Positions 14,804 through 55,531 of a DNA stretch of 64,000 bases are shown piece after piece (within the stretch, counting starts at the first letter, position 1; every line of letters begins with the position of its first letter). The notes under the pieces were generated by a model that saw only the letters and a list, made by a program, of their open reading frames with translations, searched no databases and was not told where the DNA came from. The DNA comes from Bacteroides ovatus. GTDB taxonomy: Bacteria; Bacteroidota; Bacteroidia; Bacteroidales; Bacteroidaceae. The DNA is taken from positions 1-64,000 of the forward strand of contig NZ_CP012938.1 in the NCBI RefSeq assembly GCF_001314995.1, given 5' to 3'. Position numbers and translations under genes: made by a program.

Positions 14804-17548
14804 ATGAAAAAATATATTCTGCAATTAATCATAGTACTGGTTTTTATACTACTTAAAGTTGAAGGAGTTTATTCTTCTTCTCCTATGAATTATTATAATA
14901 TAACGACTTTTGAGGGACTGCCAAGTAATACAGTAAACGCAATAAAGAAAGATGTATCCGGGTTTATCTGGATTGGAACGAAGGTGGGGTTATGCCGTTT
15001 CGACGGATGTGAGGTGAAAACTTATCCCTTACTGTCAGAAGATGATATTTGGTCGATAGAAGAATTGGATAGCGATACATTGCTGCTTGGTACAGTTTCC
15101 GGACTGAAATACTTTAGTCGTAAGACTAATGTAACGGTAAAACTGGACATTCCATCTGCAATAGTCAAATCAATCTGGAAGATTGCAGACAGCCAATTTC
15201 TTGTGGGAACGGAAGCTGGTCTTTATTTTATAAATAATCATACTCCTCGCCAGATATTTTTAGAAACCGGGCTTTCACCGTGCAATCATATCACGTCTAT
15301 TATTTGTGAGGATAAGAATATATATTGGTTTTCTACCGCCGACGGGTTGGGTAGAATAGATATCCGGACGATGCAACCGGAGATTTACCGGATGCCGGAA
15401 GAGATATCAAACAGCAATTTCTTCATTTGTCTCACGCGTATGGGCAACCATATCTATTTGGGTAGTTTCAATAAAGGAATATTCAGCTTTGATATGTCCG
15501 GAAAGAAATTTGCCAAAGTGAACGGTTTTGAACATAATCTGATAATGACAATAGACGGACAGGATAACCAATTGTTTGTCGGTACAAATGGACAGGGATT
15601 GAAAGTGTTGTCTTTGGAAGATGGAAGTATCGAAGTTATTTCACATAAGGAGAAGGCACGGAATTCTATCAGTTCCAATACAATCACTGCATTTTTATAT
15701 GATAATGGCATTCGTTGGATTGGAACCCAGTTTGGGGGAATCAGTTATACACCTCGTATTGGTGCCAAGTTCTCTTATTACAGTAAAAATGATTTTTACT
15801 CAACTGATTATCGGGTTCGTAGTTTTTATATGTTTCCTAATGGAGACAAGCTGATTGGTACAAGGACAGGGCTTTTCTTTATTTGTGAAAAAACAGGGGA
15901 AATAAGAAGTTATAGTTTGGAGAAAAACTTTTCTAATTTGCGGTCGGACATAGTAGTGTTTATAAATCGGATACAGGACAAAATATTGATAGGTACTTAC
16001 GGTGGAGGGGTGCATGTTTTTGATGAAAAAACATGGTCTTTAAGGGACTTCTCCCATGAAGAGTTGTTTCTGTATGGTTGCATTCTTAATATTGTAGACG
16101 ATGCGAAGGGGAATTTATGGTTTGCTTCTCAAAGTGGACTTTATCAGAGTACCCCTGAAGGACATGTGCTGAAGAAATATGATACGATGAACTCCGTCCT
16201 GACAACAAATGCCATATTATGTTTGTGTGTTGATTCGATGAATCGTCTATGGGTAGGTAGCAAATTCGGTCTGTTTTTATTGGATATTGCTACGGGGAAG
16301 ATGCGTGCGGACTGTTTTAGTGTTCCGATAAAGGCTGAAATTAAGTATATTATGGAGGACTTGCGGAAAGATATGTGGGTTTGTACGGATAATGGTTTGT
16401 ATAAGATAGGGAAGGATTTGGTTGTTCATGAACATTTTACTACTGATAATCTGCTTCCGGATAATCAAGTGCCTTGTATCCTGGAAGATAGTCATGGAAT
16501 TTACTGGATCGCTACACAAAAAGAGATTGTACGTTACAATCCGATAGAAGAACAGCATTATACATATCAGAGACAGGATGGGTTGAGCGGTCTGGAATTT
16601 AATAATAGTGTCTTTGTTTCCAATGACAGTATTATCTGGTGGGCCAATGAAGGCGGGTTAGTCTATACCACAACCGGGAATATTAATACAGAACGTCGTA
16701 TTATAAGTACCCCTATAATAACATCGTATGCTATTTCTAATATAGAATATGACTTTCCGTATATGGACATGTCGAAAGGAATTGAATTGCCTTCTTCTGA
16801 AAATACTCTTCGTTTTAAATTTTCTAATATGGATTATGCGTTGCCTTATGCCAATTTCTATGAGTATAAGTTGGAAGGGTATGATAAGGAATGGTTGAAA
16901 CAGACAGGGATTAATGAAGTTTCTTATAAGGACCTACCAGGAGGACATTATGTCTTCAAGTTGCGTGTCCCGGGCGGTGAAAAACAGATGCAGACTGTGG
17001 ATATCTATGTCCGGAAATCATATACTTTTATGGCAGGCATATTATTGATGGTTCTAATAATAAGTATTCTAGTAATATATTTCTGTTACCGGATATGGAA
17101 ACTTAAAAAGCGGATGACGGATGAGCGGATGATATTAAGTAAGGTTCAGGAGAGAAGTAAAGATAAAAAGGCGGCATTGCCCGAAATGAAAGTGAATGGT
17201 ATCTTGGATAATTTGCTTTCCTATTTGGAACATGAAAAGCCTTATCTGAATCCAAAATTAAGTATTGGGGACGTTGCTGCAAAATTGGACTGTACCGAGA
17301 CAGAGCTTTCTCAATTGCTCAATAACCACATGAATGTGAACTTCTCTAATTTCATTAATGTATATCGTGTCAATGAGATTAAAAAACGTTTAAATCAGGA
17401 AAACCTCTCAAAATATACTTTGAAAGCTTTGTCAGAACAATGTGGCTTTAGTTCTAAGGCTACTTTCTATAGAGTATTCAAGAATGTAACTGGCATGACA
17501 CCACTAGAATATTGTAAGAAACAGAACCTTGTGATAAAAGAAAATTGA
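14804..17548 (+). CDS. Module A membrane-tethered regulator: beta-propeller, Y_Y_Y, TM, AraC HTH
   Basis: A 914-residue protein. Signal/anchor segment 1-25; two-component-regulator propeller repeats (about 30-660) with recurring (G/D)xxWIGT/LWVGS-xxGL motifs; a Y_Y_Y domain (about 665-735, ...YEYKLEGYDKEW); one TM helix (about 742-766); then an AraC-type double HTH (about 806-908) ending LSEQCGFSSKATFYRVFKNVTGMTP. Hybrid two-component systems share the sensor and HTH, but no histidine kinase, receiver or phospho-acceptor domain exists here. The periplasmic sensor is therefore joined directly to DNA binding. It probably senses an imported glycan fragment and activates the sigma operon starting at 17777. 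Divergent from the HipA-like gene, with its own promoter. Confidence 0.88.
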   Translation: MKKYILQLIIVLVFILLKVEGVYSSSPMNYYNITTFEGLPSNTVNAIKKDVSGFIWIGTKVGLCRFDGCEVKTYPLLSEDDIWSIEELDSDTLLLGTVSGLKYFSRKTNVTVKLDIPSAIVKSIWKIADSQFLVGTEAGLYFINNHTPRQIFLETGLSPCNHITSIICEDKNIYWFSTADGLGRIDIRTMQPEIYRMPEEISNSNFFICLTRMGNHIYLGSFNKGIFSFDMSGKKFAKVNGFEHNLIMTIDGQDNQLFVGTNGQGLKVLSLEDGSIEVISHKEKARNSISSNTITAFLYDNGIRWIGTQFGGISYTPRIGAKFSYYSKNDFYSTDYRVRSFYMFPNGDKLIGTRTGLFFICEKTGEIRSYSLEKNFSNLRSDIVVFINRIQDKILIGTYGGGVHVFDEKTWSLRDFSHEELFLYGCILNIVDDAKGNLWFASQSGLYQSTPEGHVLKKYDTMNSVLTTNAILCLCVDSMNRLWVGSKFGLFLLDIATGKMRADCFSVPIKAEIKYIMEDLRKDMWVCTDNGLYKIGKDLVVHEHFTTDNLLPDNQVPCILEDSHGIYWIATQKEIVRYNPIEEQHYTYQRQDGLSGLEFNNSVFVSNDSIIWWANEGGLVYTTTGNINTERRIISTPIITSYAISNIEYDFPYMDMSKGIELPSSENTLRFKFSNMDYALPYANFYEYKLEGYDKEWLKQTGINEVSYKDLPGGHYVFKLRVPGGEKQMQTVDIYVRKSYTFMAGILLMVLIISILVIYFCYRIWKLKKRMTDERMILSKVQERSKDKKAALPEMKVNGILDNLLSYLEHEKPYLNPKLSIGDVAAKLDCTETELSQLLNNHMNVNFSNFINVYRVNEIKKRLNQENLSKYTLKALSEQCGFSSKATFYRVFKNVTGMTPLEYCKKQNLVIKEN

Positions 17549-17560
17549 GTAAAACCTATA

Positions 17561-17579
17561 TTCTCATTTTTTTTGAGAC
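17561..17579. promoter_or_regulatory. Module A operator 1 (TCTCA-N7-TGAGA)
   Basis: TTCTCA, a run of eight T, then GAGAC. The final C is 117 nt before the TAGTTTTG box, the same position as the module B (119) and C (118) operators. The spacer is 7 rather than 10. Confidence 0.65.
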
Positions 17580-17633
17580 AAGTTTTATGACGCTTATCTG
17601 CTTGTATAACAATACTTTATGCTGAAAATGTAA

Positions 17634-17651
17634 TTCTCATTTTAGTTGAGA
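17634..17651. promoter_or_regulatory. Module A operator 2 (TCTCA-N7-TGAGA)
   Basis: TTCTCATTTTAGTTGAGA repeats operator 1 with the same 7-nt spacer, ending 20 nt before the -33 box. No clear second copy is seen in modules B and C. Confidence 0.6.
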
Positions 17652-17670
17652 TAAAACAGCGCTTCTATTG

Positions 17671-17703
17671 TTTGGAAATAGGGTGAGATTGTGTGTAGTT
17701 TTG
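17671..17703 (+). promoter_or_regulatory. Promoter of module A sigma operon
   Basis: TTTG (17671-17674) and TAGTTTTG (17696-17703) with 21-bp spacing. The -7 box continues GCATC, as it also does in module C. Confidence 0.65.
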
Positions 17704-17776: not shown

Positions 17777-18187
17777 ATGAAGAGCATTTTGGAAGTTATA
17801 ATCCTTTTACTTCTTTCCTTTCTGATAGGAAGTAATAAGTCGGTTGATACTGCTTGTTCATTGCCCGACACCTCTCAATGGAGTGTGGCTAATAGTGATA
17901 TTTGTTTAAAGGTGAATGGAGATTCGATTTTTTGGACTATGAAATCTGATAAAAAGGATATTCCTGCTATCACGGCATCTGCCAGATACAATTTGCTTAC
18001 TTCCGGAAGAATCAGTCTGACGTACAGCTTACCTTTATTATCTCAAGATTTGTCCTATATCTATGGAGAAAGGAATGAGATACTGCATCGTCATATTATC
18101 CATGCATTCTTATGTAAGCAGGAAGATGATAAATTGGTATTTTATTCATCTGCGGGTGATTCTATTGTTTTTTGTCGTAAAAACTAA
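17777..18187 (+). CDS. Small exported protein of unknown function upstream of sigma factor A
   Basis: 136 residues with a hydrophobic N-terminal segment (about 4-20, EVIILLLLSFLIG), a signal peptide or anchor. The rest is a small, probably beta-rich domain with TSQWSVANSDICLKVNGDS and a late KLVFYSSAGDSIVF. I do not recognise a family. It is the first gene after the operators and promoter, and its stop is separated by one base from the start of the ECF sigma gene, so the two are translationally coupled. Modules B and C have no counterpart. Its position would suit a regulator of the sigma factor, but it has no FecR signature; this is inference from position only. Confidence 0.6.
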   Translation: MKSILEVIILLLLSFLIGSNKSVDTACSLPDTSQWSVANSDICLKVNGDSIFWTMKSDKKDIPAITASARYNLLTSGRISLTYSLPLLSQDLSYIYGERNEILHRHIIHAFLCKQEDDKLVFYSSAGDSIVFCRKN

Positions 18188-18188
18188 A

Positions 18189-18719
18189 ATGGAGACGGAA
18201 GATATGCAGACAATGAATTCTACTACAAATCAATTATTGACTGAAACTTACACATCCTTATGTCCCATAATCATTCATTATATAAATCGTAAAATCAATG
18301 ATTATGAATCTGCCAGAGACATGGCGCAGGATGTATTTCTTCGTCTCATGGAATATAAGCAAATACTTCGTAAAGAGACAGTGAGAAGTATGGCGTTCTT
18401 CATAGCTCACAATCTGGTGGTTGATTATTTGCGACGTTATTACAAGAAGCAGGAAATGTCTGCCTATTTCTATGAATATGGCGTGAACATTACTGATGAT
18501 ACAGAGAGCGGGGTGATAGCCAATGACCTGTCGGCACAAGAAAATCTGAAACTACTTCTACTTTCTCCGCAGCGTCGGACAGTTTATATAATGAGTCGTT
18601 TCCAGGGTAAGACAGCACCTGAAATCTCTGAAGAATTGTGCCTTTCGCGACGTACCATAGAGAATCATTTACTGGCTAGCCGTAAAGAGATTCGTGAATA
18701 TATCAAGTCATGTATTTGA
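18189..18719 (+). CDS. ECF-type RNA polymerase sigma factor, module A
   Basis: 176 residues. Region 2 contains ARDMAQDVFLRLMEYKQ and VVDYLRRYYKK; region 4 contains LSPQRRTVYIMSRFQGKTAPEISEELCLSRRTIENHL, split here as LSPQRRTVYIMSRFQ and APEISEELCLSRRTIENHL, the promoter-binding HTH. The frame is open from 18063, but ATG 18189 is chosen because it follows the upstream stop directly and matches the METxDM/MENIDM start of the module B homolog. No anti-sigma gene is adjacent. Expected to direct transcription of the downstream susC operon, or of its own operon; inferred from position, as susC starts 46 nt later. Confidence 0.88.
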   Translation: METEDMQTMNSTTNQLLTETYTSLCPIIIHYINRKINDYESARDMAQDVFLRLMEYKQILRKETVRSMAFFIAHNLVVDYLRRYYKKQEMSAYFYEYGVNITDDTESGVIANDLSAQENLKLLLLSPQRRTVYIMSRFQGKTAPEISEELCLSRRTIENHLLASRKEIREYIKSCI

Positions 18720-35977: not shown

Positions 35978-36003
35978 AAAGAGAGTAAGTTCCTTGTTTT
36001 TTG

Positions 36004-36046
36004 TGCAAACCTATATAAAATCCGAGATATTTTATGTAGGTTTGCA
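36004..36046. promoter_or_regulatory. 18-bp inverted repeat overlapping the -7 box of regulator B
   Basis: TGCAAACCTATATAAAAT (36004-36021) matches the reverse complement of 36029-36046 with one mismatch, around a 7-nt loop. The right arm contains TAGGTTTG (36037-36044), a TAnnTTTG -7 box 28 nt before the regulator start. It may be an autoregulatory operator or a 5' stem-loop. Confidence 0.6.
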
Positions 36047-36071
36047 TTGTTTCATTAAATATGAATCCTCT

Positions 36072-38849
36072 ATGCATAATCTAATACGACATATAGTAAA
36101 GGCTTTGACTACTCTTTGTCTGCTACTCATAAATATACCTATTTATCCGATTTCTTACTCTTTCCGCAGCATTTCCGAAACAGACGGACTTTCCGACCTG
36201 ATGGTCAGTTCTTTTTATAAAGATTCATTAGGCTATATTTGGATTGGCACGGCAAGTTCTGTTGAACGTTTTGACGGAGTCCATTTGAAACATTATCCCA
36301 TATTAGGGAATAATGAAAAACTAAAATGGGTGAATGTAATAACAGAGACGACTGGTAATAGGATATGGATAGGGAATGATATGGGATTGTGGACGGTTCA
36401 TAAGGAAACAGAAAAACTGGAACCCTTTAGTCCGGAGACTATTAATTGTGGTGTTCGTGCCCTTTTACCAACTCGGGATGGAGGATTGTATATAGGTAGT
36501 GAAAAAGGATTATTTATCTATCGAAATAATCAATTGGAGCGACTGGCAGTAAGTTCCGACATCTTATCGGCAGAAAATTTCATCGTTGCATTGAATTTGG
36601 ATGAAAATGGAGCTTTATGGATTCTTACCAAAGGTGGATTACATTCCATGAATATTTCAAACCGGAAAATAACCTCTTATCCATACAAGCAGGGATTCTC
36701 CTATAGAAATATGACACGTATCGGCAAAAAGCTTTATTTAGGAACAATGGATCATGGGTTGCTATGTTTTGATATCTCGACGGGTGAATTTAAAGAAAAT
36801 ATTATTGACTTGGGTTGTAATGTTATCATGTCTCTCTCCAGTGATGAAAAGAATTTGTTGTATATAGGCACTGATGGAAACGGGGTACATTTTGTTTCTG
36901 CGAATAATATGAAGATTGTTCGTTCCTTTTGTTACGAATCGGGAAATAAACAGGCGATCCGTTCCAATTCTGTCTATGCATTATTGGTTGATAGGGAAGG
37001 AGTGATTTGGATTGGTTTTTATCAGTTAGGCTTGGATTATACACTATATCAGAGCGGGTTATTTTCTACCTATGCCTATCTTCCTTATTTCGACTCAAAA
37101 GAGATGCCTGTTCGTGCAATAGCTGTTTCGAAAGACGAGAAACTGATAGGTTCGCGCAATGGACTTTTCTATATAGATGAAAAGAAACAGCGGTTTAAAA
37201 GTTTTAAGGTTCCCGAATTACGTTCCAATATGATTTTGTGTATTTATGCTTTTGAAGGAAAGTATTACATAGGTACTTATGGTGGCGGTATATATATCCT
37301 CAATCCTTCCACGTTGACTTTATCTGATTTTGAAACAGCAGACTTAAAATCAACTCCATTCCTGAAAGGACATGTGTTTTGCATAAAATCGGATGATGAA
37401 GGAAGTTTGTGGATGGCGACGTCTATGGGACTTTACTGTTATAGAGATGGAAAGCAAATCCGGCATTATACTACTGAAAATTCGAAATTACCGGGAGAGA
37501 ATGTCTATGATATATGTTTTGATTCCACTCGTAAAGGATGGATTTGTACAGAGAACGGTTTATGCATTTGGGATCCATCAACCAATAGTTTGAAGTCGGA
37601 TATGTTTCCTGAAGGGTTTATTCATAAAGATAAAATCCGGACAGTATACGAAGATTCTAATCATGAGCTTTATTTCCTTCCGGATAAAGGTGCAATTTTT
37701 ATATCTGATTTGTCGATGAATCATTTTCGGAGAATGCAGTCGGGCACTCCTTTGGATGGAAAGGATGCAATGTTTATTATAGAAGATCATGAAGGTTGGT
37801 TGTGGATTGGTACTAATTTGGGCTTATATCGTTATGATAAGAAAGGTAATTTTATTCCCTATAATTTCGTAGATGGCTTGCCCAGTTCTATATTTATTAC
37901 TTGTTTCCCTGTGATAGATGAAGAGGGTACGATGTGGTTCGGCAATTCGAAAGGTATGATTTATCTGACCTCGGAACAAAATGGCAGAAAAGCAAAATGG
38001 CATTATCCGGTTGCTATTACCGATGTATTAGTGAATGGAAAGCAATCGGTTTATGCTAAGATGAGTAGAGAAAATAACGTGTATAAAATAAAATTGGAAG
38101 CAGATCAGCGTAATTTGACAATCCGTTTCTCTGGGTTCACTTATTCGGAGCCTGCATATATGTCTTATAAATGTAAGATGGAAGGAATAGATAGCGACTG
38201 GCAATTATTGAGTGGACAATCTGAAATAACGTATTATGACTTATTATCCGGCAATTATCAGTTTAGAATTCATCGGGTGGATGATCCGGAGTCGGAAATT
38301 TGCCTGATGGTGACTATTGCTCCTCGTTTCAATGCTGTTATGTGGAGTGTGACTGTTTTAGTGATATTGATAATAACCTTGGCTTATATATATTATCGCC
38401 GGAGAATGAAACGAAACAACCTAATTCAGTCGAAGGAAAAACAGCAACCGGTAATAGAAGAAAAATATAGAAAGAGTAATGTGACTGAAGAAGAATGTAG
38501 GCGCTTGGCTGGCGAACTGGAACTTCTGATGCAAAGGGATCGACTATATGTTAATCCCAATCTGAAAATAGCAGACTTGGCTGCAATATTGAATGTTTCC
38601 ACTTATACATTATCCTATTTATTCAATCAATATTTGGATAAAAACTATTATGACTATTTGAATGACTATCGCATAGAGGAGTTTAAGCGTTTGGTTGATA
38701 AAGATGAATATTCTAAATATACGTTGACAGCTTTAGCCGAACTATGTGGTTTTAGTTCGCGTACTTCCTTCTTTCGTTATTTTAAAAAGGTTATTGGAAT
38801 TACTCCGAATGAATATATTCGAAGTATCGGAAAGACCAATGAAGAATAA
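36072..38849 (+). CDS. Module B membrane-tethered regulator: beta-propeller, Y_Y_Y, TM, AraC HTH
   Basis: 925 residues from ATG 36072, chosen over an upstream opening because the signal segment HNLIRHIVKALTTLCLLL then sits at the N-terminus and the -7 box lies ahead of it. Propeller repeats with WIGT/LYIGS motifs run to about 670; Y_Y_Y about 680-745 (SYKCKMEGIDSDWQ); TM about 753-778; AraC double HTH about 816-918 with TLSYLFNQYL and LAELCGFSSRTSFFRYFKK. No kinase or receiver domain. Its recognition helices nearly match those of regulator C, as do the two operators. Expected to bind the inverted repeat at 38901 and activate the sigma gene. Confidence 0.88.
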   Translation: MHNLIRHIVKALTTLCLLLINIPIYPISYSFRSISETDGLSDLMVSSFYKDSLGYIWIGTASSVERFDGVHLKHYPILGNNEKLKWVNVITETTGNRIWIGNDMGLWTVHKETEKLEPFSPETINCGVRALLPTRDGGLYIGSEKGLFIYRNNQLERLAVSSDILSAENFIVALNLDENGALWILTKGGLHSMNISNRKITSYPYKQGFSYRNMTRIGKKLYLGTMDHGLLCFDISTGEFKENIIDLGCNVIMSLSSDEKNLLYIGTDGNGVHFVSANNMKIVRSFCYESGNKQAIRSNSVYALLVDREGVIWIGFYQLGLDYTLYQSGLFSTYAYLPYFDSKEMPVRAIAVSKDEKLIGSRNGLFYIDEKKQRFKSFKVPELRSNMILCIYAFEGKYYIGTYGGGIYILNPSTLTLSDFETADLKSTPFLKGHVFCIKSDDEGSLWMATSMGLYCYRDGKQIRHYTTENSKLPGENVYDICFDSTRKGWICTENGLCIWDPSTNSLKSDMFPEGFIHKDKIRTVYEDSNHELYFLPDKGAIFISDLSMNHFRRMQSGTPLDGKDAMFIIEDHEGWLWIGTNLGLYRYDKKGNFIPYNFVDGLPSSIFITCFPVIDEEGTMWFGNSKGMIYLTSEQNGRKAKWHYPVAITDVLVNGKQSVYAKMSRENNVYKIKLEADQRNLTIRFSGFTYSEPAYMSYKCKMEGIDSDWQLLSGQSEITYYDLLSGNYQFRIHRVDDPESEICLMVTIAPRFNAVMWSVTVLVILIITLAYIYYRRRMKRNNLIQSKEKQQPVIEEKYRKSNVTEEECRRLAGELELLMQRDRLYVNPNLKIADLAAILNVSTYTLSYLFNQYLDKNYYDYLNDYRIEEFKRLVDKDEYSKYTLTALAELCGFSSRTSFFRYFKKVIGITPNEYIRSIGKTNEE

Positions 38850-38900: not shown

Positions 38901-38926
38901 GAGTCTCAAATAATAAATTGAGACTC
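38901..38926. promoter_or_regulatory. Module B operator (GAGTCTCA-N10-TGAGACTC)
   Basis: A perfect 8-bp inverted repeat with an A/T spacer of 10. It matches the module C operator at 23 of 26 positions and sits 155 nt before the sigma start codon, the same distance as in C. Confidence 0.75.
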
Positions 38927-39042
38927 TATGAAATTGAGAGTTAACTGTCTGATAATTAGAATGTGTGTTGATCGCTTGCTCTCCGCCAATAGGACGGAAT
39001 TTATCTCTTTCTTTTTGAATATCCGTTTTCATATTTACCTTC

Positions 39043-39050
39043 TATATTTG
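39043..39050 (+). promoter_or_regulatory. -7 box of module B sigma gene (TATATTTG)
   Basis: Matches TAnnTTTG, with CTATATTTGC shared with module C. No TTTG lies at the expected -33 position, which suggests an activator-dependent promoter. The start codon is 30 nt downstream. Confidence 0.55.
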
Positions 39051-39080: not shown

Positions 39081-39596
39081 ATGGAAAATATAGATATGTC
39101 ATCCGTACAGTTGATTACTGATTCTTATCAGAATTATCATCGTTCCGTTTACTTGTATATCTTATATAAGATAGGAAAAGATGAAGACGCGAAAGATCTG
39201 GCTCAAGATGTATTTTTACGTTTGATGGATTATAAGCAAATGTTGCGACCGGAAACAATAAAGTACTTTATTTTCTCTATTTGCCGGAATTTGGTTATTG
39301 ATTATTTGCGTCGTCATTATAAAATGCAGGAAATTACATCCTATTTTTTAGATCAGCTTCCTACCTTTATTAATGAGGTAGAGAGCCAGATAATCGCTAA
39401 TGATTTATCTGTGTGTGAGCAGAAGAGAGTTCTCCGGCTGCCTGCGCAACGAAGAAAGATTTATGTAATGAGTCGCTTCAAGCATATATCGTCAGCGGAT
39501 ATTTCCGCTTGTCTCGGATTATCTGTCCGTACTGTAGAAAATCATTTGTTTATCAGTCGGAAAGAAATCCGTGAATATATCCAACAGTGTATCTAA
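39081..39596 (+). CDS. ECF-type RNA polymerase sigma factor, module B
   Basis: 171 residues; region 2 with AKDLAQDVFLRLMDYKQ and VIDYLRRHYKM, region 4 with LPAQRRKIYVMSRFKHISSA and ADISACLGLSVRTVENHLF. It starts MENIDM, like METEDM in module A. No anti-sigma gene or small exported partner is adjacent. susC begins 44 nt downstream, so the sigma gene probably heads the operon and drives or boosts it. Closely related to the other two sigma factors here. Confidence 0.9.
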   Translation: MENIDMSSVQLITDSYQNYHRSVYLYILYKIGKDEDAKDLAQDVFLRLMDYKQMLRPETIKYFIFSICRNLVIDYLRRHYKMQEITSYFLDQLPTFINEVESQIIANDLSVCEQKRVLRLPAQRRKIYVMSRFKHISSADISACLGLSVRTVENHLFISRKEIREYIQQCI

Positions 39597-51317: not shown

Positions 51318-51352
51318 GTTTTTATTTGGATTGTATTGAGTAAATTATTTAC

Positions 51353-51406
51353 CCCCTTCGTATTTAGTTATGTACATATAGAGAATACGAAGGGGCTACT
51401 TTTTTA
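51353..51406 (+). terminator. Second hairpin with T-run upstream of regulator C
   Basis: CCCCTTCGTATT (51353-51364) pairs with AATACGAAGGGG (51384-51395), a 12-bp perfect stem, followed by CTACTTTTTT. It may be a second terminator; a 5' attenuator of regulator C is possible. A TATGTTTG -7 box for the regulator follows at 51440-51447, without a clear -33 box. Confidence 0.55.
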
Positions 51407-51480: not shown

Positions 51481-54312
51481 GTGAAGAACACGATTAAATA
51501 TCTGATTCTTATATTAATATATTTGGCTTGTGGGGGTAATCTACAAGCCCAAAACTATACATTCCGTAATGTCGTCATGTCCGACGGGCTATCCGGACTG
51601 TTGGTGAATGCCATTTATAAAGATTCCGAAGGTTTTGTATGGTTGGGGACGGATAATTGCCTCGACCGTTTTGATGGTGTGAAAGTGCGCCATTTTGAAT
51701 TCCGTGGCATTGAGTCGGGAAGAAAGAAACGGGTAAACAGTGTTACGGAAACATCCAATAAACAACTTTGGGTGGGAAACGGAATCGGGCTTTGGCGGTT
51801 GAATCGCCCAAACAGCCAATTGGAAAGGATTGTCCCCGAAAAGATAGACTTTGCCGTCAATACGTTACTGGCCGATGGAGATATTCTTTATATCGGCACA
51901 GAGAAAGGCTTATTCATTCATAAAGACGGTCAGTTGCTTCAAGTCTTGACAGACCGGAATATGCTTGCCGCCTGTAACAGAATCATGGATATTTGTCTGA
52001 ATGAAGATAAAACGGTATTATGGTTGGCCACGGTACAGGGATTGTTCTCTTATTCACTGAAAGACGGCAAGATTGATTCCTGGCATTTTCAGGAGAATGT
52101 GCCCGAAGCCGATTATTTCCGTTGCCTTACTCGTATCGGCGAAACGCTCTATCTCGGTACAATGAGCCAAGGTGTAGTACGTTTCGATATAAAGAAGGAA
52201 TCATTCTCTCATGCGGTATCTTTGGGGTGCGATGTCATTTCCGATATTTCCAGCGATGGTAAAGGGACTGTGTATATAGCTACTGACGGCAATGGCGTAC
52301 ACTTCCTTTCACACAAAGACCAACAAGTGACACGTCGTTTTTACCATGATGTCAATGATAAGGAAGGAATTCGCAGTAATTCTATTTATTCCTTACTTAT
52401 AGATGATAGAGGTGCCGTCTGGGTGGGGCATTTTCAGGCAGGACTGGATTATTCACTCTATCAGAACGGCCTTTTCCGTACGTATGATTATCCACCTTTG
52501 TTTAATTCGGCCAATCTTTCCATCCGTTCTTTTGTAAACAAAGGGCAAGAGAAGGTCATCGGTTCGCGTGACGGCTTGTTTTATATAAACGAAGCTACCG
52601 GAGTAGTGAAGAGTTTTGTAAAACCCGTCTTGACCTCGGATTTGATACTGACAATCTGCTTCTATCAAGGAGAATATTACATCGGTACGTATGGTGGCGG
52701 TATGATGGTATTGAATCCGGAAACGCTGTCTCTGAAATATTTTGCCCAAGGTGATACGGAGCTTTTCCAGAAAGGACATATCTTCTGTGTGAAACCGGAT
52801 GCCAAAGGAAATCTTTGGATAGGTACTTCGCAAGGGCTGTTCAGCTATAACGGACAGACAAAGCAGATAAAGAGCTTCACCAGTGCCAACTCCCAACTGC
52901 CGGAAGGCAATGTGTATGAAGTCAGTTTTGACTCTACCGGCAAAGGATGGATTGCTACCGAAACCGGTATGTGTATTTACGACCCGGCTTCCCAAAGTTT
53001 GCGTTCCAATGTCTTTCCCGAAGGATTCGTGAATAAAGATAAGGTTCGTACTATCTACGAAGATGCTGAACACAACCTCTATTTTATCCGTGAGAAAGGA
53101 AGCCTGTTTACATCCACTTTAACGATGGACCGTTTCCAGAACCGCTCTATCTTTTCTACTCTTCCGGACAACTCGCTAATGTCTGTTATAGAAGATAACC
53201 AAGGCTGGTTGTGGGTGGCTTGCAATGACGGGTTATTGCGTATCAAAGAAGAGGGAGAGGAATATGATGCTTTCACTTTCAATGATGGAGTGCCGGGACC
53301 AACTTTTACGAATGGAGCTGCTTATAAAGATGAAAAAGGACTATTGTGGTTTGGTAACACTAAAGGACTGATTTATGTCGATCCGAAACGTGTGGACGAG
53401 GTGCGTGGCAAGGTCCGTTCGATCGTATTTACTGACATATTAGCTAATGGTGTCCCTTTTACCAGCTCCTCTTTGAAATACAATCAGAATAATTTGACTT
53501 TCTGTTTCACAGACTTTGCTTATGGTCTCCCATCTGCCTTACTATATGAATATCGACTGGAAGGAGTGGACAAGGACTGGAAATTATTGGCTGCACAGAA
53601 CGAAGTTTCTTATTACGGACTTTCTTCCGGGACTTATACTTTTCGTGTACGTCTTCCGGGAAATGAGCAATCCGAAGCTAGCTGTCAAGTGACGGTATGC
53701 CCTATGATACCTTGGTGGGGATGGGGACTTTCCGTTTTATTAATCGTAGGAATTATAGCCTTTATACGGTATTATGTCTGGAAACGTATGCGTCGTTTGC
53801 TTGTTTCTTCTGCTTCGCCGGTTGTGGTATCATCAGCAGAGGAGGAGATACAACAAAGAGAACAGTCTGTAGAACAACATCCGGAAGTAAATTCAGAACA
53901 ACAACCTTCCGTTGTTGAAGAGAAATATAAGACCAATAGACTGACCGAAGAGGAATGTAAAGAACTTCATAAAAAACTGGTGGCTTATGTGGAGAAAGAA
54001 AGGCCATATATCAATCCCGATTTGAAGATGGGTGACCTGGCTTCTGCATTGGATACTTCTTCACATTCATTATCGTATCTTTTGAACCAGTATCTTAATC
54101 AGTCCTACTATGATTTTATCAACGAATATCGCGTTACCCAATTCAAAAAGATGGTAGCGGATAGCCAATATTCCCGCTATACTTTGACTGCACTGGCAGA
54201 ACTTTGTGGATTCAGTTCGCGTGCCTCCTTCTTCCGCTCATTCAAAAAGAGTACGGGAGTTACTCCGAATGAATACATCCGTAGTATCGGCGGAACAGCC
54301 AAAGAAGAGTAA
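51481..54312 (+). CDS. Module C membrane-tethered regulator: beta-propeller, Y_Y_Y, TM, AraC HTH
   Basis: 943 residues from a GTG start preceded by GAAAGGAAG; the signal peptide KNTIKYLILILIYLACGG follows at once. Propeller repeats (FVWLGTDN, LYIGTEKGL, LWIGTSQGLF and others) to about 660; Y_Y_Y about 670-735 (YEYRLEGVDKDWK); TM about 744-768; a Gln/Glu-rich linker about 780-815; AraC double HTH about 836-940 with SLSYLLNQYL and LAELCGFSSRASFFRSFKK. No histidine kinase or receiver. A likely activator of the sigma gene at 55016 through the operator at 54836. Confidence 0.88.
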   Translation: MKNTIKYLILILIYLACGGNLQAQNYTFRNVVMSDGLSGLLVNAIYKDSEGFVWLGTDNCLDRFDGVKVRHFEFRGIESGRKKRVNSVTETSNKQLWVGNGIGLWRLNRPNSQLERIVPEKIDFAVNTLLADGDILYIGTEKGLFIHKDGQLLQVLTDRNMLAACNRIMDICLNEDKTVLWLATVQGLFSYSLKDGKIDSWHFQENVPEADYFRCLTRIGETLYLGTMSQGVVRFDIKKESFSHAVSLGCDVISDISSDGKGTVYIATDGNGVHFLSHKDQQVTRRFYHDVNDKEGIRSNSIYSLLIDDRGAVWVGHFQAGLDYSLYQNGLFRTYDYPPLFNSANLSIRSFVNKGQEKVIGSRDGLFYINEATGVVKSFVKPVLTSDLILTICFYQGEYYIGTYGGGMMVLNPETLSLKYFAQGDTELFQKGHIFCVKPDAKGNLWIGTSQGLFSYNGQTKQIKSFTSANSQLPEGNVYEVSFDSTGKGWIATETGMCIYDPASQSLRSNVFPEGFVNKDKVRTIYEDAEHNLYFIREKGSLFTSTLTMDRFQNRSIFSTLPDNSLMSVIEDNQGWLWVACNDGLLRIKEEGEEYDAFTFNDGVPGPTFTNGAAYKDEKGLLWFGNTKGLIYVDPKRVDEVRGKVRSIVFTDILANGVPFTSSSLKYNQNNLTFCFTDFAYGLPSALLYEYRLEGVDKDWKLLAAQNEVSYYGLSSGTYTFRVRLPGNEQSEASCQVTVCPMIPWWGWGLSVLLIVGIIAFIRYYVWKRMRRLLVSSASPVVVSSAEEEIQQREQSVEQHPEVNSEQQPSVVEEKYKTNRLTEEECKELHKKLVAYVEKERPYINPDLKMGDLASALDTSSHSLSYLLNQYLNQSYYDFINEYRVTQFKKMVADSQYSRYTLTALAELCGFSSRASFFRSFKKSTGVTPNEYIRSIGGTAKEE

Positions 54313-54540
54313 CTTTCCGACTTATTATCCCTGAAATCTATTTTGCATCCATATTACCTTCACCCTTCACTTCTCCCTGTTCATCGGGGTTAGAGGGTGA
54401 ACCCTGCCCTTTCACTTGGTGAACCCCTTCTCTTTTATTCTTTTCCTATTTCCAATCTGTTATTAGATAAGTTCTTCTTCTCCCTATCTAAACTTCCTTT
54501 TCCTTAATTGCAAAGTTGTTTTTTATAGGAAGCAAACTTT

Positions 54541-54690
54541 AAATGCAAGTTTTGTTTTTATAATCAAAGCTTGCATTTATAAAAACAAAACTTGCATTTA
54601 TATAATCAGAACTTTCATTTATAGTTTATCATTAACCAAAAGCAACTTTGCAACAAGGGCAAAACAAGTTTATCATTAATGAAAAGGAAC
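54541..54690. repeat. A/T-rich array with about 22-bp period upstream of sigma factor C
   Basis: Units with (C)TTGCATTTATA or CTTTCATTTATA recur about every 22 bp near 54570, 54591 and 54612, preceded by an inverted copy (AAATGCAAG, 54541). AGTTTATCATTAA then recurs at 54623 and 54667, exactly 44 bp apart. The surrounding gap 54313-54835 holds no gene; TTCACCC-TTCAC (54359) and GTGAAGGGGGTGAA (54774) form loose outer inverted tracts. Confidence 0.6.
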
Positions 54691-54835: not shown

Positions 54836-54861
54836 GAGTATCAAATTATAAAATGAGACTC
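54836..54861. promoter_or_regulatory. Module C operator (GAGTATCA-N10-TGAGACTC)
   Basis: An inverted repeat with one mismatch and a 10-nt A/T spacer, 23 of 26 identical to module B. It lies 155 nt before the sigma start codon. Confidence 0.75.
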
Positions 54862-54976
54862 TGTTTGTTGTGAATGTAACTTCTTGATATATAATGATAT
54901 ATATGCAAATAAGTCTATCTGGATTCTTGGAGATTACTCTGTCCTGTTTTCGAGCTGTTATATCCAAAATCACCTC

Positions 54977-54984
54977 TATATTTG
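54977..54984 (+). promoter_or_regulatory. -7 box of module C sigma gene (TATATTTG)
   Basis: CTATATTTGC as in module B, 31 nt before the start codon; the -33 position has no TTTG. The TTTGCATC continuation is shared with module A. Confidence 0.55.
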
Positions 54985-55015: not shown

Positions 55016-55531
55016 ATGGAGACAACAGCTAACACTTCCGACAACATTATCACCCGTTCTTATGAAGAATATTATCAGGTGATTCTTACCTATATTACTT
55101 ATCGTATCACTCATCGCTACGAAGCGGAGGATCTAACCCAGGATGTATTTGTACGTCTGCTGGACTACAAGCAAATGCTCCGTCCGGACACAGTGAAATA
55201 TTTCTTGTTCACCATTGCCCGCAATATCGTAATCGACTATATCCGTCGTTATTATAAGAAACAGGAGATAGACAGCTACATCTATGATACTATGTCCACT
55301 TCTACCAATGAAACCGAAGAAAAAATTATCGGTGATGATTTAATGACAATGGAACGGACCCGCTTGGCTGCTATGCCCGAACAACGTCGGTTAATTTATA
55401 CATTGAACCGCTTCGAAAATAAAACGTCTCCGGAAATCGCAAATGAACTGAATTTAAGTTGCAGGACGGTGGAAAACCATCTGTTTCTGGGACGTCGTGA
55501 AATGCGCGAGTTTTTCCGGAATTGTATATAA
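55016..55531 (+). CDS. ECF-type RNA polymerase sigma factor, module C
   Basis: 171 residues from ATG 55016; the longer opening at 54884 is rejected because it would include the promoter box and lengthen the protein beyond its paralogs. Region 2 shows AEDLTQDVFVRLLDYKQ and VIDYIRRYYKKQ; region 4 shows MPEQRRLIYTLNRFENKTSP and EIANELNLSCRTVENHLF. Same length as the module B sigma factor. No anti-sigma gene nearby; susC starts 132 nt downstream. Confidence 0.9.
   Translation: METTANTSDNIITRSYEEYYQVILTYITYRITHRYEAEDLTQDVFVRLLDYKQMLRPDTVKYFLFTIARNIVIDYIRRYYKKQEIDSYIYDTMSTSTNETEEKIIGDDLMTMERTRLAAMPEQRRLIYTLNRFENKTSPEIANELNLSCRTVENHLFLGRREMREFFRNCI

Follow-up and report, generated by a model that had tools for sequence, protein, structure and literature searches.

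The window analysed here, the whole 64,000-nucleotide stretch of Bacteroides ovatus DNA, holds three regulator modules (A, B and C), in each of which a long regulator gene is followed on the forward strand by an ECF-type sigma gene. The regulators are encoded at 14804..17548 (A, 914 aa), 35994..38849 (B, 951 aa) and 51481..54312 (C, 943 aa), and B and C have the same domains: a Reg_prop beta-propeller, Y_Y_Y and an AraC HTH (...SSRASFFRSFKK in regulator C), while regulator A, likewise kinase-less, has a divergent HTH (SSKATFYRVFKN). A Pfam scan of the three proteins returned Reg_prop, Y_Y_Y, AraC HTH and otherwise only weak propeller-like matches; HTH_18 and HTH_AraC both exceed their curated cut-offs in all three, so the HTH is of AraC type, and the same scan found no histidine kinase or receiver domain (HisKA, HATPase, Response_reg) in any of them. 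By eye, a single hydrophobic, presumably transmembrane (TM), stretch precedes the HTH in each. The sigma genes lie at 18189..18719 (A), 39081..39596 (B) and 55016..55531 (C). Sigma C exceeds the curated cut-off of 126.4 for Sig70_bacteroi1 (TIGR02985) with 130.2 bits, whereas sigma B, for which this is also the nearest model, and sigma A stay under it at 114.1 and 91.2. We place the start of sigma B at ATG 39081 and that of sigma C at ATG 55016, which is retained in aligned orthologs; the TTG of a longer ORF was not taken as the start. Modules B and C share the order regulator, ECF-type sigma, susC, susD-like gene (called by eye) and more genes. Modules A and B each encode a confirmed Big_2 protein, and B in addition a confirmed alginate-lyase-like one. 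Module A has an extra 136-aa ORF without a Pfam match (17777-18187) between its promoter and sigma A, and two relatives (L166 and L172) have a gap of comparable length there. In two other relatives (L161 and L178) the regulator frame looks broken, and the sigma gene and operator are retained.

Between regulator and sigma gene in modules B and C lies an inverted repeat that we call op1. In module B it occupies 38901..38926 (GAGTCTCA-N10-TGAGACTC; full site GAGTCTCAAATAATAAATTGAGACTC), centred 129 bp upstream of the -7 promoter box TATATTTG at 39043..39050 on the forward strand, and in module C 54836..54861 (GAGTATCA-N10-TGAGACTC; full site GAGTATCAAATTATAAAATGAGACTC), centred 128 bp upstream of the same box TATATTTG at 54977..54984, also forward. 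A first-pass annotation of this DNA had reported both sites, and its positions, the identity of 23 of 26 bases and the 155 nt from the end of the repeat to either sigma ATG are all correct. The 119 and 118 nt that it counted from TGAGAC to CTATATTTGC should read 117 and 116 nt of intervening DNA, and the arms in module B reach further, to 11 perfect pairs (38899-38909/38918-38928).

This repeat is genuine, and chance does not account for it. The exact pattern GAGTnTCA-N10-TGAGACTC occurs at only two places in the 6.47-Mb genome of this strain, before sigma B and sigma C. The next-best places have two mismatches, and with up to three mismatches the pattern gives 29 forward and 48 reverse matches against 42 and 40 for a reversed-pattern control. 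Random placement, which would have told against an operator, is likewise contradicted across the genus, where every one of the 16 exact places in 149 genomes (own genome included, drawn from a larger group) lies upstream of a homologous sigma gene. Allowing one mismatch gives 37 distinct places in these genomes, against 6 control matches (counted per strand); of the 21 one-mismatch places, 18 of which were examined, 10 lie upstream of a homologous sigma gene and 8 elsewhere, the latter with spacers that are mostly less AT-rich. Of 23 sigma loci, the window's two included, 11 have op1 at a distance of exactly 155 from the sigma start, and in the others this distance ranges over 147-194. The spacing of op1 is constant to the promoter box, rather than to the ATG.

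The DNA around op1 had been described as otherwise dissimilar between the two modules, and in it two further conserved elements stand at fixed positions, one of them weakly in module B. The central dyad is a 25-bp element with the consensus TAA-N4-YTGATwATCAR-N4-TTA, found 87-89 bp upstream of the box; in module B it lies at 38942..38966 (14/17 consensus bases, centre 89 bp upstream) and in module C at 54877..54901 (13/17, centre 88 bp upstream). The other element, op2, is a second, weaker inverted repeat, AGTCTnn-N10-TGAGATT, whose centre is 53 bp upstream of the box in 24 loci and 52 bp in one. Module C has it at 54912..54935 as AGTCTAT-N10-GGAGATT (10/14 half-site bases, centre at 53 bp). 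The corresponding position in module B, 38978..39001, is weak, with 7/14 half-site bases, and a block CCAATAGG..GAAT..ATC at this position is conserved in four aligned loci of the B subgroup.

These elements were counted in loci collected by homolog searches with sigma B and sigma C as queries, through overlapping sets of 149 genus, 398 family and 295 order genomes. Collapsing them at 75% identity over at least 110 bp reduced 80 usable upstream loci to 49 representatives, 44 of which have a TAnnTTTG box 28-80 nt ahead of the ATG; the remaining five comprise L155 and L187 together with three loci of the module A kind (L166, L169 and L172). When we set eight of these 44 aside, motif inspection had already shown that the sites were missing from them; 36 remained. 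Of the eight, four (L175, L190, L196 and L201) lie downstream of full hybrid two-component system (HTCS) genes, and at the other four (L176, L182, L185 and L195) no regulator of the kind studied here was recognised upstream. The HTCS comparator genes show HisKA, HATPase_c and Response_reg; of the kinase-less regulators, the domain scan covered A, B and C, and those of relatives were judged by length and similarity. Among the relatives, Phocaeicola vulgatus ATCC 8482 carries such a regulator together with a sigma gene at its locus L052. With thresholds of at least 11/14 half-site bases for op1 (spacers of 8, 10 or 20), at least 9/14 for op2 and at least 11/17 for the dyad, the 36 non-redundant loci yielded op1 in 35, the dyad in 35 and op2 in 25, all three occurring together in 25; at one locus (L141) none of the three fits in the scan. 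The eight set-aside loci gave no op1, no op2 and one dyad (L195), and the same scan before 37 other TAnnTTTG boxes on the forward strand of the window gave none, none and one. For all 44 boxed representatives the totals are 35 (op1), 36 (dyad) and 25 (op2). In 27 of the 35 loci with op1, its distance upstream from the box is 126-129 bp.

At 53 bp the mean op2 score over the 36 loci is 9.17, whereas 500 dinucleotide shuffles gave a mean of 4.27, with an sd of 0.27 and a maximum of 5.14. An independent search of the 149 genus genomes with GTCT-N12-TGAGAT-N42-TAnnTTTG, which combines op2 with the box, returned 58 places with at most one mismatch, compared with 16 matches for the control. Every one of the 21 exact places belongs to such a sigma locus, among them a new one cut by a contig end (L275), and of the 37 one-mismatch places, 11 of which were examined, 10 are at sigma loci by coordinates and 1 is before susC. 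Lengthening the spacer by a single base left 2 exact places, against 21. Among the 25 loci that have both operators, the op1-op2 distance is 73-76 bp in 17, 65 bp in three (about one helical turn less, with the dyad still at -88), 61-62 bp in three loci of the D class described below, and 70 and 81 bp in two loci read with a 20-bp op1 spacer, of which L173 can also be read with N10. Wherever op1 stands at 129, the dyad is at -89 (8/8 loci) and op2, if present, remains at 53. As far as sequence can indicate, this spacing pattern behaves as protein on DNA. A weak op2 (5-7/14) is found in all four representatives with an RT-type HTH, module B included, and a weak op2 (6-8/14) in 3 of 20 with an RA-type HTH. 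Module B, where op1 and the dyad are strong and op2 is weak, suggests that a degenerate op2 is tolerated.

The mean dyad score at -88 is 5.5 standard deviations over that at other positions, and decoy positions gave a mean of 2.7 and a maximum of 15 hits among the 36 loci, though most of the loci counted had also supplied the consensus. Module A, which was not used for the consensus, is for this reason the fairer test, and its dyad (17595..17619) has 13/17 consensus bases and a centre 89 bp upstream of the box. The dyad probably binds a separate factor, which may perhaps bend the DNA and so let op1 and op2 act together. A Crp site was considered and rejected, as the published motif wwwTATGTTnTAnAACATAwww does not match. 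Another candidate is IHF, because WATCARNNNNTTR, which we take to agree with its consensus, is found on both strands of the dyad; we know of no established IHF specificity for Bacteroides, and IHF at this site is therefore a guess. Across the own genome, at loci such as L232-L246, the dyad pattern is frequent: with at most two mismatches it matches 105 times per strand, the control 19 times. Two repeated families swell this number, with 11 and 6 near-identical copies among the one-mismatch matches listed. At the 15 genomic dyad loci checked, which represent about five distinct sequences, neither strand shows a TAnnTTTG box in the 140 bp downstream, and Rfam gave no match in six of them.

The operator is also found beyond modules B and C, to which it had first been assigned; both of those sites are real, and module A repeats the arrangement, with spacers of 7 bp. 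There op1 is TTCTCA-N7-TGAGAC at 17561..17579, centred 126 bp upstream of the box, and op2 is TTCTCA-N7-TGAGAT at 17634..17652, centred at 53 bp, which gives an op1-op2 distance of 73 bp; the -7 box itself (TAGTTTTG, 17696..17703, forward strand) precedes both the 136-aa ORF and sigma A. Module A is outside the 36-locus statistics and fits the 53 and 89 positions. Its relatives L166 and L172 have a similar layout with changed half-sites. In a further class, D, whose HTH carries KSKASFFRAFKK, op1 is GTATCAC-N6-GTGATAC and op2 is TATCn-N10-nGATA. The half-site at op2 follows the HTH: D-type HTHs go with TGATA (T as the fourth base of the right half) in 7/7 loci, and B/C-type HTHs go with TGAGA (G as the fourth base) in 33 of the 34 loci with a scorable op2, 11 B/C loci with a weak op2 having been left unclassed. 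In one of the seven D-type loci, L163, regulator (L202) and sigma gene are about 6 kb apart, and the HTH is of the D type, in agreement with the operator type. The half-sites of op1 follow the HTH loosely, with B/C-type regulators behind TATCA/TGATA arms at L125-L132 and L177; L191 also has such arms at op1, and its contig (L058) carries a GSRASFFR regulator. As regulators B and C share both HTH type and operator, cross-talk between modules B and C is likely.

Starting from the observed sequence elements, their geometry, their conservation and their association with one regulator class, we propose that op1 is the distal, best-conserved operator of a three-element activator promoter read by the kinase-less tethered regulator, a reading to which we would give a probability of roughly 0.75. 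Four observations argue for an operator: the sequence of op1 is kept while its flanks diverge, the op1-op2 distance shifts by about one helical turn in some loci, the half-site type at op2 tracks that of the HTH, and the repeat is missing before same-family sigma genes that stand downstream of full HTCS genes. The first-pass annotation had taken op1 as the binding site of the tethered regulators; its operator-like behaviour stands, and what had been missed is that op1 would be just the distal member of a promoter that also comprises op2 and the dyad. The regulator probably amounts to an HTCS in one-component form, with a periplasmic propeller/Y_Y_Y sensor, one TM segment and a cytoplasmic AraC HTH, that would sense an oligosaccharide outside. 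Ligand would bring two AraC domains together, and the resulting dimer would occupy an inverted repeat. The better conserved op1 would serve to load the regulator, and op2, in most loci, would adjoin RNA polymerase and provide the activator contact there. With a third protein at the dyad bending or bridging the DNA, the sigma-susC-susD operon could be turned on at a distance. Such a three-site promoter would probably let a membrane-anchored sugar sensor of these gut bacteria switch on a sugar-uptake operon without a phosphate relay.

It is also conceivable that another factor, an HTCS or an unlinked regulator, binds these sites and that the adjacent kinase-less protein acts elsewhere. The loose relation between op1 arms and HTH type leaves room for this, as do a full promoter beside an HTCS gene (G035, discussed below) and two loci, L203 and L209, at which the fetched DNA shows the operator and no close relative of the regulator (L204 is truncated by a contig end). 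We consider it unlikely, since the half-site type at op2 does track HTH type, and L175, L190, L196 and L201, downstream of full HTCS genes, are without op1 and op2. The own genome has a fifth such locus, L155, again behind a full HTCS gene; its sigma gene lacks a nearby box, and inspection revealed no convincing op1 or op2 there. Published HTCS motifs, moreover, consist of direct repeats whose tandem sites are separated by about 21 bp (PMC3878776). Op1 could also act at the RNA level, as a terminator of the regulator gene or as its leader-RNA hairpin: the inverted repeat is nearly perfect and lies 3' of the regulator stop codon, some 50 nt away in module B. In module C, however, it is more than 500 nt past that stop, no T-run follows it, it stands upstream of the promoter box, its spacer variants and shifts of about one turn suit DNA geometry better than a hairpin, and Rfam has no match in the window at the gathering threshold. 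On T-run, position, spacing and Rfam we rejected a terminator or riboswitch, and regard any such hairpin as very improbable.

The same sites could in principle serve the opposite sign of regulation, with op1 and op2 as a repressor pair that holds a silencing loop until sugar releases the regulator. Sequence data do not fix the sign, and paired operators about 75 bp apart are also the layout of a repression loop. On the other side, with a transcript start expected about 12 nt beyond the first base of the -7 box, op2 is at about -65, a usual place for an activator that contacts polymerase. SusR activates its operons (PMC3878776), and their glycan turns HTCS-linked PULs on (PMC3243724); we think repression improbable, and favour activation through a three-element promoter.

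The regulators resemble several known systems in part. With the HTCS of Bacteroides they share the periplasmic propeller and Y_Y_Y sensor, the C-terminal AraC HTH and the setting in susC/susD loci, and the PDB entries that match them best in sequence, 3v9f and 4a2l, bear the name two-component hybrid sensor. HTCS, unlike regulators A, B and C, have HisKA, HATPase and receiver in the same polypeptide, and their predicted motifs are direct repeats (PMC3878776), whereas op1 and op2 are inverted repeats; both the kinase-receiver part and the operator type thus place our regulators outside the HTCS. SusR is described in the same paper as a single membrane protein that joins a periplasmic sensor to a cytoplasmic DNA-binding domain and activates the sus operons, an organisation that our regulators share. 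Its DNA-binding domain is said there to have no significant similarity to other known factors and its motif to be a direct repeat, in contrast to the clear AraC HTH and the inverted repeats found here, so that neither a SusR-type C-terminal domain nor a SusR-type motif is present. CadC/ToxR-type proteins also combine sensor, TM helix and DNA-binding domain in one protein, and in E. coli CadC is a precedent for the use of two sites with help from looping (PMC5430869). The likeness is in mode of action only, as CadC has an OmpR-like winged HTH and the regulators here have an AraC HTH instead, with unrelated sensors. Finally, the ECF sigma/anti-sigma pairs of PULs likewise have an ECF-type sigma gene beside susC, but judged by neighbouring genes sigma B and sigma C are flanked by regulator and susC, not by an anti-sigma gene, and sigma control here appears to be at transcription of the sigma gene, unlike in those pairs.

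The operator would control the operon headed by the sigma gene. A regulator-to-sigma cascade, as had been proposed, is not borne out in that form: no sigma-dependent promoter was identified in the region inspected for one, upstream of regulator C, susC directly follows sigma, and in another genome (G035, locus L210, contig 23) a full promoter stands directly before susC, with no sigma gene, beside a genuine HTCS gene. This promoter has op1 at 128, a dyad of 16/17 at -88 and op2 at 53, and being complete without sigma it argues against sigma as an obligatory step. G035 is ambiguous as to which protein acts there; a putative regulator with a B/C-type HTH is about 14 kb off on the same contig (L141).

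We find it tempting to speculate, with rather less than even confidence, that an enhancer-like promoter of this kind is widespread in Bacteroidales, with two operators one DNA loop apart, a bend or bridge site between them and a membrane-resident regulator. If so, promoter DNA would be brought to the membrane and folded there, in a phosphorylation-free alternative to HTCS in which op1 could move only by about whole helical turns. We found no earlier description of this promoter, or of an operator for kinase-less regulators, in our searches of the open-licence literature. For propeller-AraC regulators that resemble HTCS without the kinase, the half-sites provide a testable operator code, and the geometry of 53, 88 and 128 would allow a search for targets in any genome without expression data. 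The question of a membrane-anchored sensor that activates a Bacteroides promoter may thereby be reduced to simple reporter experiments.

The region upstream of regulator C differs from the promoters above. Autoregulation of regulator C through op1 and op2 was considered and rejected, since by eye this region has neither in eight aligned loci, the window included, and a sigma-dependent promoter motif was not found in it. It does have an inverted repeat of its own at 51350-51398, TACCCCCTTCGTATT / AATACGAAGGGGCTA, with TGAGTAAAT in this repeat region conserved across eight aligned loci. A TATGTTTG-type box accompanies the repeat, which looks like a control element of the regulator gene itself, unlike op1 and op2. 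At the other end of the gene, between regulator C and op1, a perfect 24-nt inverted repeat with a 13-nt loop (54540-54600) is possibly the terminator of regulator C.
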